DNA from: Gammaproteobacteria bacterium
GTDB lineage: Bacteria; Pseudomonadota; Gammaproteobacteria; SURF-13
Reading direction: 5' to 3'
Length of the DNA stretch: 64,000 nucleotides
Assembly: GCA_030680605.1 (NCBI GenBank)
Contig: JAUXUQ010000010.1
Coordinates: 212,826-276,825 of the forward strand
Numbering within the stretch: the first letter of the stretch is position 1; each line of letters starts with the position of its first letter. The notes beneath the pieces are model-generated. The model did not search any database and had not been told where the DNA came from. It saw only the letters and a program-made list of their open reading frames with translations. Below are positions 6,681 through 56,679 of the stretch, in pieces. The position numbers and the translations under genes were made by a program.

Positions 6681-8135
<1,455 letters not shown>

Positions 8136-8232: not shown

Positions 8233-9666
8233 ATGGAATGGGAAACCGTCATCGGGCTTGAGATACACGCTCAGCTCGCCACGCAAACCAAGATATTCTC
8301 CGGCGCGGCCACGGCCTATGGCATGCCGCCCAACACCCAGGCCTGCGCGGTTGATCTTGGCCTGCCCGGCGTGCTGCCGGTGCTGAATGCAGAAGTGGTG
8401 CGCATGGCAGTGAAATTTGGCCTCGCCGTGGGCGCCAGCATTGCGCCGCGCTCGGTGTTTGCGCGCAAGAATTATTTCTACCCCGACCTGCCCAAGGGTT
8501 ACCAGATCAGTCAGTACGAGCTGCCGGTGGTGGCCAAGGGCACGCTGGAAATCGAACTGGAGGATGGCAGCACCAAAACCATCGGCATCACCCGCGCCCA
8601 TCTGGAAGAAGACGCCGGTAAATCCCTGCACGAAGATTTTCACGGAAAGACCGGCATTGATCTGAATCGCGCCGGCACGCCGCTGCTCGAAATCGTCTCC
8701 GAGCCCGACATGCGCTCTGCGAAAGAAGCGGTGGCGTACATGAAGAAAATCCACTCGCTGGTGCGCTATCTCGAAATCTGTGACGGCAACATGCAGGAAG
8801 GCTCGTTCCGCTGTGATGCCAACGTGTCGGTGCGCCCCAAAGGGCAGGAAAAATTCGGCACCCGTGCCGAGCTGAAAAACATCAACTCGTTCCGCTTTGT
8901 GGAAAAGGCAATCAACTTCGAGGTCGAACGCCAGATCGAACTGCTGGAAGGCGGCGGCGCAGTAGTGCAGGAGACGCGCCTGTACGATGCCGACAAAGAC
9001 GAAACCCGCTCCATGCGTTCCAAGGAAGAGGCCAACGATTACCGCTACTTCCCCGACCCCGATCTGTTGCCGCTTGAGATTGAGCACGCTTTCATCGCCG
9101 AGGTGAGAAATACCTTGCCCGAACTGCCCGACCAGAAAAAGCAGCGCTTCATAAACGACTACGGCCTCACGCCGTATGAATCGGGCGTGCTCACCGCCAG
9201 CCGTGAACTGGCCGAGTTTTATGAGGGCGTGGTGAAGACCACGCAGGGCGAGGCGAAGTTGGCGGCCAACTGGGTCACGGGCGAGCTGCTGGGCGCGCTC
9301 AACAAGGCGGGGCTGGATATTCTCGCCAGCCCGGTTACGGCGCGGGCGCTGGGCGGCATGCTGCTGCGTATCAAAGACAACACCATCTCCGGCAAGATTG
9401 CCAAGCAGGTGTTCGATGCCATGTGGCACGGCGAGGGTGATGCCGATGCGATCATCGAGGCCAGGGGCCTGCGCCAGGTTACCGACAGCGGCACGATTGA
9501 AAAAGTGGTGGATGAAGTCATCGCCAACAGCCCGCAGCAGCTCGAGCAGTACCGTGCCGGCAAGGAGGCGCTGTTCGGTTATTTCGTCGGTCAGGTGATG
9601 AAGGCGAGCCAGGGTAAGGCCAACCCGGCACAGGTCAATGCGCTGCTGAAAGAAAAACTCAAATAA
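8233..9666 (+). CDS. gatB: Asp-tRNA(Asn)/Glu-tRNA(Gln) amidotransferase subunit B
   Basis: The kinase/transamidase subunit of GatCAB, which phosphorylates the misacylated Glu- or Asp-tRNA and amidates it. It has 477 residues from the ATG at 8233, giving the canonical N-terminus [15 protein letters not shown]; the in-frame codons upstream belong to the repeat hairpin. Signatures seen are [14 protein letters not shown], the [16 protein letters not shown] block and [10 protein letters not shown]. The C-terminal YqeY-like tail domain is present ([16 protein letters not shown]). It is the last gene of the operon, convergent with the next gene. A short GC hairpin (9668-9683) follows the stop but lacks a T-run. 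Confidence 0.98.
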
Positions 9667-50552: not shown

Positions 50553-51437
50553 CTATACCTTAGCGGATGTGCGCACCGCTTCCAAGAGCATCCAGTCTTC
50601 ACGCAGAACTTTCTGCACCATTGAAAACCAGGGGAGATAGGCGGCTATCACGTCGTCTGCCTGTTGCTCAAGTATGCCCGACAACACCAGCTGGCCCCCG
50701 GTGCGCAGGTGTTGCGCAAACAGAGGCGCAAGTGTCATCAGCGGTTGCGCAACAATATTGGCCAGCAGCACGTCGGCCTCCAGCGCCGGGAGCTGCTCCG
50801 GCGCCAGCGTGTGCAGCTGCACTGCATTTTTTTCCGCGTTGGCGCGAGTGGCGGTGAGCGCCTGCGGGTCGTAGTCGGTGGCATACACCGTGCGCGCGCC
50901 GAGCTTCGCCGCCGCCAGTGCGAGGATGCCAGAGCCGCAGCCATAATCGATTACCGTCAGGTCGGCGGGAGGGTGCTGCGCCAGCCACTCCAGACACAGC
51001 GCGGTAGTGGGATGGGTGCCGGTGCCGAAGGCGAGGCCGGGGTCGAGCAGCAGTGTGACGCGTGTGGCATCCGGCGGTGTCAGCCAACTGGGGCAAATGC
51101 ACAGCGTGTCATCGAAGCACAGTGGCTTGAACTGGTCGAGACACACCCGCTCCCACGCCTGTTCCGCCAGTGGTTCCAGCGTGTAATCACGCACCGATTC
51201 GTCACCGCTTTGGGCATGCAATTGCTCGACAATGGCGGGGATGTCGGCGTCGGCGGCAAACAGGCCTTCAACGCTGGTGTGCGTCCACAGCGGCGTGTCA
51301 CCGGGAGCAGGTTCATATAATGGCTCGTCCTGGCTGTCGCGCAGGGTCACTGCGAGCGCGCCCGCGTCTGTAAGGCGGTCGGCGAGCGCTTCGGCCAGCG
51401 CGGAGGGTGCGTTAAATTTGAGTTGCAGCCAAGCCAT
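50553..51437 (-). CDS. prmA: Ribosomal protein L11 methyltransferase
   Basis: Trimethylates lysines and the N-terminus of L11. It has 294 residues: an N-terminal substrate-recognition domain (1-100), then a class I SAM methyltransferase with DYGCGSGILALAAAKLGA (about 165-182) and the NIVAQPLMTLAP catalytic-side motif. It starts 30 bases from a perfect 19-base palindrome. In many relatives prmA follows accC directly; here the order is broken by an AT-rich gene on the other strand. Confidence 0.96.
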   Translation of the reverse strand: MAWLQLKFNAPSALAEALADRLTDAGALAVTLRDSQDEPLYEPAPGDTPLWTHTSVEGLFAADADIPAIVEQLHAQSGDESVRDYTLEPLAEQAWERVCLDQFKPLCFDDTLCICPSWLTPPDATRVTLLLDPGLAFGTGTHPTTALCLEWLAQHPPADLTVIDYGCGSGILALAAAKLGARTVYATDYDPQALTATRANAEKNAVQLHTLAPEQLPALEADVLLANIVAQPLMTLAPLFAQHLRTGGQLVLSGILEQQADDVIAAYLPWFSMVQKVLREDWMLLEAVRTSAKV

Positions 51438-51466
51438 GGGTATTTAGCTTTAAATGCTATCAGGCG

Positions 51467-51485
51467 ATGATAGGCAGCCTATCAT
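51467..51485. promoter_or_regulatory. Perfect palindrome ATGATAGGC-A-GCCTATCAT upstream of prmA
   Basis: Nine-base arms around one central base, 30 bases before the prmA start. This has the form of a repressor operator, or of a hairpin at the 5' end of the prmA mRNA. No known regulator consensus was matched. Confidence 0.6.
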
Positions 51486-51651
51486 ACATGCACGGTAACG
51501 TTGGATCAGGATGGTAGGTGCAAGGAATGAAAAAGTAGCGGAATTAAAGAGCTAGAGAATGATATTTAATTTACTATCACTTCGGCAGCATACTTGGATA
51601 GGTTTAAAGTAGGCGTCTAAATCTCGTCAGGATTCATAATAAGAATAGCTC

Positions 51652-52236
51652 ATGGATATCTACGAAAAATTAGGATTTGTCTTATTGGGAGCCATTATTT
51701 CGGGCGCACTGTATCTAATTAAGAGGATGGTTGAGAAGAAGCCGCAATCAGACAAACTTGATAGGCAAAGGAAAGTCCTTGAAATAAATAAGCAGTTATC
51801 TGAGCAATGCCTATCGATTGAGGATCTTTGTGAATTAGAAAATGCTCTGACCGGAAAGTCGGAGTTAATAGGCAAGGCATCTAGGTTAATAGAAAATGAA
51901 ACCCAGTCGCTGGTCGAAAAAACTGATGGGGAATTTCTTTCGCAGGCCGCACTTAACATAAGGGCGGATGCTAATCTGAAGATTTCTAAAGCCAGATTAG
52001 AGCAAACCTTAAACGAGCTTTCTTTTAAAATTGATGAGATAGAAAGAGAGGCTTTATATGAATCACAGAAGGCGTGGGAAGAATACAGCGAAAAACAGGC
52101 AGAGTCTGCATCAATAGGTTATCGAGGAGGTAGTATATATCCTCTAATTTATCTATCTGAGCTTGAATCCCTAACTGTTGAAAGGGCGGCTAGATTGCAG
52201 GTAGAGTTAGATGAATTAAAGAGGTTAGGAAATTAA
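51652..52236 (+). CDS. AT-rich LprI/DUF1311-like membrane-anchored protein, probably cytoplasmic
   Basis: 194 residues. One membrane helix (about 7-25) is followed by positive residues (KRMVEKK), so the rest should face the cytoplasm. A coiled coil spans about 35-80. The C-terminal part (about 95-190) matches the DUF1311/LprI pattern: SQKAWEEYSEKQ, the GGSIYPLIYLSELESLTVER block and a final charged helix. In that family the domain is normally secreted and held by cysteines; here the expected positions are Ala, Ser and Leu, and no cysteine is left in the domain. Base and codon use are strikingly AT-rich compared with its GC-rich neighbours, pointing to recent transfer. The function is unknown. 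Confidence 0.72.
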   Translation: MDIYEKLGFVLLGAIISGALYLIKRMVEKKPQSDKLDRQRKVLEINKQLSEQCLSIEDLCELENALTGKSELIGKASRLIENETQSLVEKTDGEFLSQAALNIRADANLKISKARLEQTLNELSFKIDEIEREALYESQKAWEEYSEKQAESASIGYRGGSIYPLIYLSELESLTVERAARLQVELDELKRLGN

Positions 52237-52312
52237 AGTACTGACAAGCTTGTTAAGCACGGTAGGGAGCACTAACTGCAGCACATCCCGCCGAATGTAA
52301 CCGCTAACACTT

Positions 52313-52347
52313 CGGTGCATTACGGCTTGCACCTGATGCGCCCTACG
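52313..52347. repeat. REP-like imperfect palindrome downstream of accC
   Basis: The stretch CGGTGCATTACGGCTTGCAC, then CTGATGCGCCCTACG, forms an imperfect inverted repeat (GGTGCAT against ATGCGCC). It resembles the type of short intergenic palindromes repeated in many proteobacterial genomes. It lies between two convergent genes and could act in transcript termination. Only one copy was seen here. Confidence 0.4.
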
Positions 52348-52348
52348 C

Positions 52349-53689
52349 CTACAACCCCAGTTTCTTTTCCAGATAGTGTATCGAGGTGCCACCCTGCTGA
52401 AAGGCTGCGTCAGCAATGATGTCACGCTGTAGCGGGATGTTGGTCTTGATGCCGTCCACCACAATTTCGGCCAGCGCGGTGTGCATGCGCGCCAGTGCCG
52501 AGGCGCGCGTGTCGCCGTGCACGATGAGCTTGCCGATCAATGAGTCGTAGTTCGGCGGCACGGTGTAACCGTTGTAGATGTGCGAGTCCATGCGCACGCC
52601 CGGCCCGCCGGGGGCGTGGAACTGGGTGATGGTGCCGGGCGAGGGCGTGAATTTTTTCGGGTCTTCGGCGTTGATGCGGCATTCGATGGCGTGGCCGCGC
52701 CAGATAACGTCCTTCTGGCGTACAGACAGGCGCTCGCCCGAGGCGATGAGCAACTGCTCCCGGACAAGATCGATGCCGGTGATCATTTCGGTGACAGGGT
52801 GCTCGACCTGGATGCGGGTGTTCATCTCGATGAAATAAAAACGGCCGTTTTCGTATAAAAATTCAAACGTGCCGGCGCCACGGTATCTGATGTCGCGGCA
52901 GGCCTCGGCGCAGCGCTCGCCCATGCTGTTGCGCAGTTTCTCCGGTATGCCCGGCGCGGGCGCTTCTTCCAGCACTTTCTGGTGCCGGCGCTGCATGGAG
53001 CAGTCGCGCTCGCCGAGGTGGATGGCATTGCCGTGGGTGTCGGCCAGCACCTGAAACTCGATGTGGCGCGGGCGCTCAAGGAATTTTTCCATGTACACGG
53101 TATCGTTGCTGAACGCGGCCAGCGCCTCGGACTTGGTGAGGGTGATGGCGCTGAGCAGGGTGGCGTCGGTATGCACCACGCGCATGCCGCGCCCGCCGCC
53201 GCCGCCTGAGGCCTTGATGATGACCGGATAACCGATCTTGTGCGCCAGGGCGAGATTTTCCTTGGCGTTGTCGCCGAGCGGGCCGTCAGAGCCCGGCACG
53301 CAGGGTACCCCTGCCTTCTTCATGGTGTTGATGGCGGCGATCTTGTCGCCCATCAGGCGGATGGTCTCGGCGCGCGGCCCGACGAAGATGAAGCCGCTCT
53401 GCTCCACGCGCTCGGCGAAGTCGGCATTTTCCGACAGAAAGCCGTAGCCGGGATGGATGGCGACCGCGTCGGTGACCTCGGCGGCGCTGATGACCGCCGG
53501 AACATTGAGATAGCTCTGGGCCGATGGTGCAGGGCCGATGCAGACCGATTCGTCCGCCAGCAATACGTGCTTGAGGTTGCGGTCAACGGTGGAGTGCACC
53601 GCCACGGTCTTGATGCCGAGCTCGCGGCAGGCGCGCAGGATACGCAACGCGATTTCACCGCGGTTGGCGATGACGACTTTTTCAAGCAT
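52349..53689 (-). CDS. accC: Biotin carboxylase subunit of acetyl-CoA carboxylase
   Basis: Carboxylates the biotin of AccB using ATP and bicarbonate, the first step of fatty acid synthesis. It has 446 residues of ATP-grasp type. Motifs: the N-terminal [20 protein letters not shown], glycine loop [11 protein letters not shown] (about 163), metal-binding [17 protein letters not shown] (about 287) and the catalytic Arg in that block. It is preceded by accB by 42 bases on the same strand. Confidence 0.97.
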
Positions 53690-54762: not shown

Positions 54763-56679
54763 CTAAATAGCGGGTAGTTCGAAGGCGCTGCGTACATGGG
54801 TGAGGAATTTCTTGGCGCCTAAGGCACCAATTAGACGATATTCGGTGCGCTCTTGTCCATCCGGGCCGTAAAAGATCATGGTCGGGGGGCCAAATACGCC
54901 CAGTGTCTTTTGCAGGTCACGGTCAGTGGCGTCATCGGCGGTAACGTCGGCCTGTAGCAGTACCGCCACCGACAAGGCCTGTTGTACGGCGGGGTCGGAG
55001 AAGGTGTATTTCTCCATCTCCTTGCAGGAGACGCACCAGTCGGCATAAAAGTCGAGCATCACCGGTTTGCCGGCGGCACGGGCCTGCATGATTTCGTCCT
55101 GCAGTTGGGCGAGGTCCTTGATCTGCTTGAACGGCAGGGCCGGCAGGGCCGCAGCGGAGATCGCCCGATCGGCGCCAGCTACAGCGAAATTTTGCAGCGG
55201 CTGGAGGGCATCCCTGCCGCCACTGGCGGCGCCTATGGCGAGCAGGCTGCCATAGATCAGCATCACCACACCCACGCCCTTCCAGAGTTTGCGCCAGCCG
55301 GTGGCCTCGGGTTGCAGGCGCTCCAGCGCACCCATGTAGATGGCGCAGATAATCAGCAGCAGTGCCCACAGGGCCAGGGTGACGGAGGCAGGCAGGATGC
55401 GCTCCAGCAGCCATACCGCCAGGGCCAGCAACAGCACGCCGAACACGGCGTTCACGGTGCTCATCCAGCCGCCCGCGCGGGGCAGCCATTTGCCGAGTGA
55501 GGTGCCGACCAGCAGCAGGGGTACCCCCATGCCCATGCTGAGGGTAAACAGCGCGGCCCCGCCCAGCACGGCGTCACCGCTCTGACCGATCACGATCAGC
55601 GCTGCGGCCAGCGGCGCCGCCACGCAGGGGCCAACGATCAGCGCCGAAAACAGCCCCATAAGGGCTACCCCTGACAGGGTGCCGGCCTGCTGGCTATTGC
55701 TGAGGCGCGTCAGGCGGGTCTGCAATGCGGCCGGTAATTGCAGCTTGTAGAGACCAAACATGGACAGCGCCAGCAGCACGAAGACGATGCTGAAGCTGCT
55801 GAGTACCCACGGGCTCTGAAAGGCGGCCTGCAGGTTACTGCCGAACAGCCCTGCGGCCACGCCCGCAATGGTGTAGGTGGCTGCCATGGCGAGCACGTAA
55901 ACCAGCGACAGCATGAAGGCGCGACGCGAGTTCTGCATGCCGCCCTGACCCACAATAATGCTGGAGAGTATTGGCACCATGGGAAATACGCACGGCGTAA
56001 AGGCGAGCAGCAGGCCCAGGCCGAAGAAGGTCAGCAGCGCGAAGGCCGTGCTGCCGCCGGTGAGCAGGCGTGCCAGTTGATCCTGTTCGGTTAATGCGGG
56101 CGCGCCAGTGTTGGCGCTAGCGCCGACGAGTGGATTGGCTGCGCTCGCTACCGGCAGTTGCAGGCTGACGGTTTTGGTCATCGGTGGGTAGCAAAAGCCC
56201 GCCTCGGCACAGCCCTGGTAACCGACGCGCAGGGTGATGGCAGTCGGTGCAGCGCTGGTGCGTAGCAGCGGCAGCACGATCTCTACATCCTGATGGTAGA
56301 CCTGTACCGCGCCGAAATTGGGGTCCTGTTTGGTTTCGCTGGGGGGGAATTGGGCCGCGCCCAGGCTTACGTCATTGCTCTCGACCAGCTCAAAACGGAA
56401 CTTGTCGCGGTACATATAATAGCCGTCGGCCACCTGCCAGCGCGCCGCAATGGCGTGGCCGCCGTTTATGGCTGTGGCGGAAAAGGCATAGGCCGCGTCG
56501 GGTTCGAGAAAGGTTTGCCCATCACTGCCCGGCAGGCCGAGCTTGGTGCCGAGGTTATTGAAGAAATCAGCAACAGTGCTTTTGCCGCTGTCGGTGGGTG
56601 CGGACGCCAGTGCGCCAAGGCTGACGCCGGCACTGGCGCTTGCCAGCGTGAGCAGCAATATCCATTTATACAGCTTCAT
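54763..56679 (-). CDS. dsbD: Thiol:disulfide interchange protein DsbD
   Basis: Carries electrons from cytoplasmic thioredoxin to periplasmic partners (DsbC, cytochrome c maturation). It has 638 residues from the ATG at 56679; one at 56688 is also possible. A signal peptide is followed by the periplasmic N-domain with its cysteine pair in GCAEAGFCYPPM, eight membrane helices with the redox cysteines in AFTPCVFPMVPIL and IVGPCVAAPLAA, and a C-terminal thioredoxin-like domain with DFYADWCVSCKEMEKY. All six cysteines are present. The start overlaps the cutA stop region by a few bases. Confidence 0.95.
   Translation of the reverse strand: MKLYKWILLLTLASASAGVSLGALASAPTDSGKSTVADFFNNLGTKLGLPGSDGQTFLEPDAAYAFSATAINGGHAIAARWQVADGYYMYRDKFRFELVESNDVSLGAAQFPPSETKQDPNFGAVQVYHQDVEIVLPLLRTSAAPTAITLRVGYQGCAEAGFCYPPMTKTVSLQLPVASAANPLVGASANTGAPALTEQDQLARLLTGGSTAFALLTFFGLGLLLAFTPCVFPMVPILSSIIVGQGGMQNSRRAFMLSLVYVLAMAATYTIAGVAAGLFGSNLQAAFQSPWVLSSFSIVFVLLALSMFGLYKLQLPAALQTRLTRLSNSQQAGTLSGVALMGLFSALIVGPCVAAPLAAALIVIGQSGDAVLGGAALFTLSMGMGVPLLLVGTSLGKWLPRAGGWMSTVNAVFGVLLLALAVWLLERILPASVTLALWALLLIICAIYMGALERLQPEATGWRKLWKGVGVVMLIYGSLLAIGAASGGRDALQPLQNFAVAGADRAISAAALPALPFKQIKDLAQLQDEIMQARAAGKPVMLDFYADWCVSCKEMEKYTFSDPAVQQALSVAVLLQADVTADDATDRDLQKTLGVFGPPTMIFYGPDGQERTEYRLIGALGAKKFLTHVRSAFELPAI

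Follow-up and report, generated by a model that had tools for sequence, protein, structure and literature searches.

A putative stray integron cassette between accC and prmA encodes a membrane-anchored protein with a cysteine-free LprI-like domain predicted to face the cytoplasm

The window, i.e., the whole 64,000-nucleotide stretch of gammaproteobacterial DNA analyzed here, carries a gene for an LprI-like protein of 194 amino acids in the interval between prmA and accC, on the strand opposite to both of these genes. The features of the locus are as follows.
51438 to 52348: foreign islet between prmA (minus strand, start at 51437) and accC (minus strand, stop at 52349).
51611 to 51632, plus strand: candidate junction on the left of the cassette; GGCGTCTAA recurs on the left of another insert, that of the congeneric genome G003.
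51652 to 52236, plus strand: LprI-like gene of 194 amino acids, read as a cassette gene (ATG start, ORF translation, PF07007 match, family alignment and pN/pS).
51673 to 51741, plus strand: hydrophobic anchor (approximately residues 8-23) and the K/R-rich flank that follows it (residues 24-30), predicted N-terminus out, C-terminus in.
51742 to 51939, plus strand: helical linker, residues 31-96, containing C53 and C60 (low-confidence helical model).
51940 to 52197, plus strand: cysteine-free LprI (PF07007) domain, residues 97-182, in which the canonical cysteine columns read R104, A150 and E170.
52237 to 52259, plus strand: possible attC relic, in which an R''-like box, spaced from the stop codon about as in the related loci L006-L008, is directly followed by GTTAAGC.
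52312 to 52347, plus strand: short dispersed repeat adjoining the accC stop, with a second copy of 89% identity at G000:C13:20457-20492.

The neighbors on the prmA and accC sides read as core genes, and in two relatives from the same family of organisms, G001 and G004, accC and prmA lie only 31 and 69 bp apart, respectively; the 911-bp interval in the window is therefore an insertion, which agrees with the claim of an earlier note on this DNA that the gene splits the usual accC-prmA order. The same note had called the islet AT-rich and foreign, and this was also borne out, since the GC content is 39.3% in the gene and likewise 39.3% in the upstream segment (51438-51651), against 60.5% in the window; the GC3 of the gene is 36.9%. 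The low value of approximately 0.39 extends up to 52236, past which it rises to 0.54. The 52312-52347 motif was considered as a high-copy repeat and rejected, there being two copies and one exact match to the motif tested.

In this genus the accC-prmA interval behaves as a hot spot for insertions, as the congeneric G003 genome holds approximately 6.5 kb at this position (L017 2389-3090; L039, i.e., G003:C93:5400-13000), and in G002 an IS30-like gene, so named by reading, precedes prmA. The G003 insert contains a BrnT-type toxin gene (Pfam E 3.5e-23) and a duplicated accC end and prmA start; the match to the antitoxin BrnA was weak (E 0.0036, below the cut-off). Also found in this insert were a small RHH-like ORF and an operon reading as histidine kinase/diguanylate cyclase. 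The interval also exemplifies how foreign DNA can be inserted repeatedly away from the main array.

The C-terminal part of the window protein was recognized by the Pfam LprI profile, PF07007, over residues 97-182, with an E value of 1.3e-11 and 45.2 bits against a curated cut-off of 22, so that the proposed membership in DUF1311/LprI withstood profile comparison. In a scan of the whole 1.87-Mb genome (E 6.8e-12) it was the lone match, and no further relative of the protein was found there; the NCBIfam profiles gave no match to the window protein. Five full-length relatives with 44-65% identity were retrieved, four from genomes and one from a plasmid record, and PF07007 scored above its cut-off in all five. 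The plasmid search yielded the Pseudoalteromonas relative (L003; 47.6% over the full length), whereas the scan of the genome collection yielded those of Thiohalobacter (L006), a gammaproteobacterial MAG, Stutzerimonas nitrititolerans (L008) and a Methylophilus MAG. The genome scan was built on the alignment of the window and Pseudoalteromonas proteins and on two short peptide patterns, and its counts, including the at least four family loci in the collection, are lower bounds. In the family alignment the identities to the window protein are 65, 53, 48, 47 and 44%, the value of 47% being that of Pseudoalteromonas, which carries the automatic name 'lysozyme inhibitor LprI family protein'. All six members share a hydrophobic N-terminus, K/R residues after it, a helical linker and a cysteine-free LprI domain. 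Their distribution is patchy: in the order of the window organism, one of six genomes (itself) has the gene, and in the order of Stutzerimonas, one of 390. A phage or prophage origin was rejected, as no match was obtained in 50,697 phage records (E 0.01) and none was confirmed in viral contigs.

Across all 15 pairs of the six members pN/pS lay between 0.19 and 0.50; synonymous sites are saturated in most of these pairs, and nonsynonymous change is limited throughout, which documents a maintained gene family rather than a chance ORF. In Thiohalobacter the frame of the gene is broken close to the 3' end (L006 8500-8531), by mutation or sequencing error, and this row of the alignment was accordingly cut at residue 172.

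Alignment with canonical LprI members placed the clearly aligned cysteine columns at R104, A150 and E170 of the window protein, and these three columns are invariant in all rows of the family alignment. The earlier description of the protein as cysteine-free holds for the LprI domain, as residues 97-182 contain no cysteine, but not for the protein as a whole, which has two, C53 and C60, in the linker; neither is conserved. To place this in context, LprI domains were sampled from 369 genomes of the class, which gave 103 listed matches; 70 of these, all above 30 bits, were examined (the window domain itself, 29 present in loci and 40 fetched), and the 33 left out were mainly weaker. Ten of the 70 domains, that of the window included, have no cysteine in the matched stretch. 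Among the other nine (of 69), at least six read by inspection as carriers of a Sec signal peptide, namely L060, L066, L072, L073, L074 and L083, while L071, L096 and L097 are less clear. The cysteines of LprI are thus usual, yet not strictly family-defining, and since cysteine-free domains with signal peptides exist, cysteine loss alone does not prove a cytoplasmic domain; to that extent the earlier proposal of a relocated domain draws no support from the missing cysteines taken by themselves. In a separate cysteine-free subgroup (L066, L071, L072, L074 and L083), an FGSS-like motif replaces GGS; most members have clear signal peptides, and several a DNPD- or DNPDA-like stretch after the signal.

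The cytoplasmic reading rests instead on the anchor pattern. In all six members a hydrophobic N-terminus of approximately 16 residues is followed by K/R residues, and inspection of the window protein revealed no signal peptide or lipoprotein export signal, nor a cleavage-site pattern in any of the six. From the positive-inside rule, which predicts the same orientation for every member, the LprI-like domain probably faces the cytoplasm, in keeping with its earlier placement; it may be added that homologues with both a signal peptide and the cysteines had been named as grounds for refuting the proposal, and that the closest homologues have neither. The alternative view puts the domain in the periplasm: the N-terminus would act as an inverted signal, or as one that is not cleaved, and the family would represent a variant within the cysteine-free periplasmic group. 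It draws on the signal peptides of at least six of the nine other cysteine-free members of the sample. We consider it improbable, however, because in all six family members K/R residues sit behind the hydrophobic stretch, with little charge ahead of it, and no cleavage-site pattern is seen, and because a related domain is found in two soluble, apparently cytoplasmic proteins. These are proteins of Ensifer (L044 2296-3372) and Paracoccus (P0001) with a C-terminal LprI domain (E 1.1e-07 and 1.2e-09, respectively) and no evident signal peptide; the Ensifer domain has cysteines, none of them at the canonical columns. The two proteins lend independent support to the idea of a cytoplasmic LprI domain. 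Both bear an R-X4-H motif, which is reminiscent of HEPN nucleases, but neither gave a Pfam match to a HEPN domain. The Paracoccus gene (L005 5428-6372) is located approximately 5 kb from an RnlA/RnlB pair, and two more records of this soluble, C-terminal-LprI type were seen in Neorhizobium and Sulfuricurvum. The AlphaFold2 model of the window protein, computed from five alignment rows, is all helical (mean pLDDT 63.4, pTM 0.31) and too weak for a fold search; a solved structural relative was rejected, the best E value of 0.082 being to unrelated proteins.

The loci of the relatives were then examined for integron features. The attC scan used for this purpose was trained on 10 of 15 collected sites and replaced a strict search with hand-set stems that had missed known sites; true-looking sites outside the training set scored 21.8 (L006 7910-7970) and 33.3 and 23.1 (contig C22 of the window genome), accepted sites scored 22-41, and the background peaked at 18.0 in the 64-kb window and at 16.1 in a control stretch of the same genome. 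The R' and R'' boxes were read by the R-box consensus of attC. The clearest case is that of Stutzerimonas nitrititolerans, where the family gene shares its contig with an intI gene for a complete integrase (L008 5571-6620, minus strand). Cassettes come after intI at 6689, 7524 and 7959, the third of these ORFs being that of the family; they are parted by 85-nt attC repeats, of which six full-length copies occur in 8.5 kb. Also in this integron region is an LprI gene of the canonical type, encoding both a signal peptide and cysteines (L008 16015-16434; Pfam E 1.6e-16), with an attC-like site after it. In L007, the stop codon of the family gene ends at 8579 and an attC starts at 8582, with a hairpin z of -2.76 and one of 200 shuffles as good. 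In Thiohalobacter, 24 nt separate the gene from the end of a preceding attC (z -2.99, 0 of 200 shuffles), and further attC sites follow in the locus; in Pseudoalteromonas the corresponding distance is 19 nt (z -1.42), and the latter locus also has an unexplained scan score of 27.2 at 7042-7172. No clear attC was detected beside the family gene in L009, where the scan peaked at 19.0. An integron integrase above the curated cut-off was present in all five homologue records; as intI occurs in 138 of the 369 sampled genomes of the class (37%), this is supporting but not decisive, and it is the direct attC flanks that decide. In addition, the GC content of the gene is lower than that of its own locus in L006, L007 and L008, and that of the window copy is lower than that of the window. 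The family belongs to the cassette pool of gammaproteobacterial integrons, with a cassette context in four of the five relatives. Short palindromic or collapsed attC-like sequences occur 3' of the stop codon in L003 (15601-15626), L006 (8572-8602) and L009 (8616-8652), those of L003 and L006 with a fold (z -4.17 and -2.22). Such collapsed sites in three members suggest repeated loss of the attC stem, and those in L003 and L006 can be read as belonging to cassettes locked in this manner.

In the window copy itself, no intact attC beside the gene rose above the window background in 51430-52360 (scan maximum 18.0). The 52237-52259 relic has a degenerate R''-like box, and its folding is no stronger than expected by chance (z -0.54); it would fit a cassette that became immobile when the attC stem was lost, which we offer as a suggestion. 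On the left side, local alignment of the window with G003 (L017 2452 onward) returned GGCGTCTAA and a little more, upstream of different inserts, with 13 of 500 shuffles scoring as high; the sequence at 51611-51632 is no more than a suggestive candidate for the left cassette junction, and a degenerate R'-like GTCAGGA is found shortly 5' of the ATG. The genome also encodes an IntI of its own (504 bits, open frame, G000:C22:58362-59303), on a different contig than the window gene. The integron around it (G000:C22:54800-59303, L025) is complete and comprises the IntI gene and at least three attC-like sites, and its cassette at 54961-56301 (minus strand) matches Pfam GmrSD_N and HNH as well as the defence model NsnA (E 7.6e-96).

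It is proposed that the window gene may be a stray, probably immobilized integron cassette inserted between accC and prmA, and that this copy would have entered by integrase-mediated capture, a route that we regard as probable. Arrival by illegitimate insertion, or with another mobile element, at what is evidently an insertion hot spot (witness the approximately 6.5 kb in G003 and the IS30-like gene in G002) would also be consistent with the lack of an intact attC in the window, and is possible without being our favored explanation. The relatives of the window gene, however, are integron cassettes, and the left junctions of the window and G003 inserts share a short motif at the frequency given above; the G003 insert, moreover, ends in an attC-like sequence, although its score of 15.7, the top of that locus, is within background and it shows no fold beyond chance. 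This G003 site presumably resembles the attC of resistance cassettes. Taking capture by integrase together with the predicted topology, our overall reading, to which we assign a probability of roughly two in three, is that of a stray cassette encoding an inner-membrane protein with its N-terminus outside and with the linker and the cysteine-free LprI-like domain in the cytoplasm.

A more skeptical view would hold the window copy to be a decaying cassette, an inert passenger with neither expression nor function: no promoter pattern above chance was found 5' of the gene, its attC is not intact, and the Thiohalobacter copy has lost its frame near the 3' end. Nevertheless, the ORF in the window is intact, and nonsynonymous constraint in the family extends to the pairs that include it (pN/pS 0.28-0.47), so that we regard the passenger view as doubtful. 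As judged from sequence comparison, the gene is foreign and maintained, and its product is a variant of LprI that is cassette-borne, cysteine-free in the domain and predicted to face the cytoplasm. To our knowledge, most integron cassettes have no known function.

As regards the role of such a protein, the description of the domain as of lysozyme-inhibitor type turned out to reflect the family name only, since the study on ScwA states that experimental evidence for lysozyme inhibition by the LprI domain is lacking (PMC7933661); such a function of the window protein is unsupported. Under the predicted topology, the anchored domain would meet its partner in the cytoplasm, next to the inner membrane, for example a protein of phage lysis or replication or an enzyme of the host cell wall. 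A role in phage defence, as raised previously, gained circumstantial support from the cassette lifestyle and from strong defence genes beside three of the five relatives. No homologue emerged from the phage records or viral contigs. In L007 (12-7600), a type I methylase gene and a specificity gene precede the four genes of a CBASS operon (phospholipase effector, cyclase, E1-E2 and JAB), which lies just upstream of the family gene, with a run of N between the latter and the JAB gene; in L006, the adjacent cassette matches PDC-S06 (E 1.1e-261); and in L009, an OLD-like ATPase-TOPRIM gene adjoins the family member on the other strand. No strong PADLOC match was found among the neighbors tested in L003 (three) or L008 (eight). 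The window protein was rejected as a known PADLOC defence protein, its only match being LeoBC with an E value of 0.051 over residues 32-152. Because of the defence genes beside three relatives, and because a review describes integrons as stores of antiphage systems (PMC12409362), the most likely function is an accessory, one-gene trait selected by phages, which we put forward tentatively. The more specific idea of an integron-borne, single-gene anti-phage system, in which an LprI fold moved to the cytoplasmic face, with its cysteines replaced, would trap a lysis enzyme, or some other cytoplasmic protein, of the phage and thereby forestall its action, is a long shot.

Alternatively, the protein may be a cytoplasmic counterpart of ScwA that binds host peptidoglycan-related enzymes at the inner membrane face and alters their stability, with no part in phage defence. 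ScwA is a horizontally acquired LprI-domain protein that controls the levels of murein enzymes (PMC7933661), and anchoring in the membrane would fit a role near cell-wall synthesis. On the other hand, ScwA is periplasmic and, by the same paper, needs its two disulfides for its stability and for its effect on MltD, whereas the window family is devoid of cysteines in the LprI domain; this explanation seems unlikely. Whatever the function, the family would be a small unit in which a domain usually taken to be periplasmic and held by disulfides seems to operate under the reducing conditions of the cytoplasm, and if the topology holds, automatic names of the type 'lysozyme inhibitor LprI family protein' mislead for the cassette-borne group. 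No treatment of a cassette-borne, cysteine-free LprI family appeared among the titles and abstract openings of the open-license papers retrieved on LprI and DUF1311, which falls short of proving its absence.

Comparison with known systems places the window protein as follows. It resembles LprI/DUF1311 (PF07007) in its significant profile match, in the W..Y and GGS motifs and in R178, which is common to both, but differs in having no cysteines in the domain and no signal peptide, in its membrane anchor with predicted cytoplasmic orientation, in its long helical linker and in being cassette-borne. With ScwA of Salmonella it shares a C-terminal LprI domain, a helical nature and the low GC of an acquired gene, whereas ScwA resides in the periplasm and has four conserved cysteines, which form two disulfides that matter for its function (PMC7933661). 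The cysteine-free LprI proteins L066, L072, L074 and L083 likewise have no cysteine in the domain, but carry a Sec signal peptide (by inspection) and an FGSS-like motif rather than GGS, and have no anchor. The Ensifer and Paracoccus proteins are similar in their apparently cytoplasmic LprI domain without the canonical cysteine pattern, yet they have no membrane anchor, and their N-terminus is HEPN-like by motif only. Lastly, insertion of cassettes at non-classical attG sites has been described (Loot et al. 2024, as cited in PMC12901181), and the gene resembles integron cassettes, CALIN and such attG-inserted cassettes, which are single-gene units with attC, low GC and patchy spread, although the window copy differs from these in having no intact attC.
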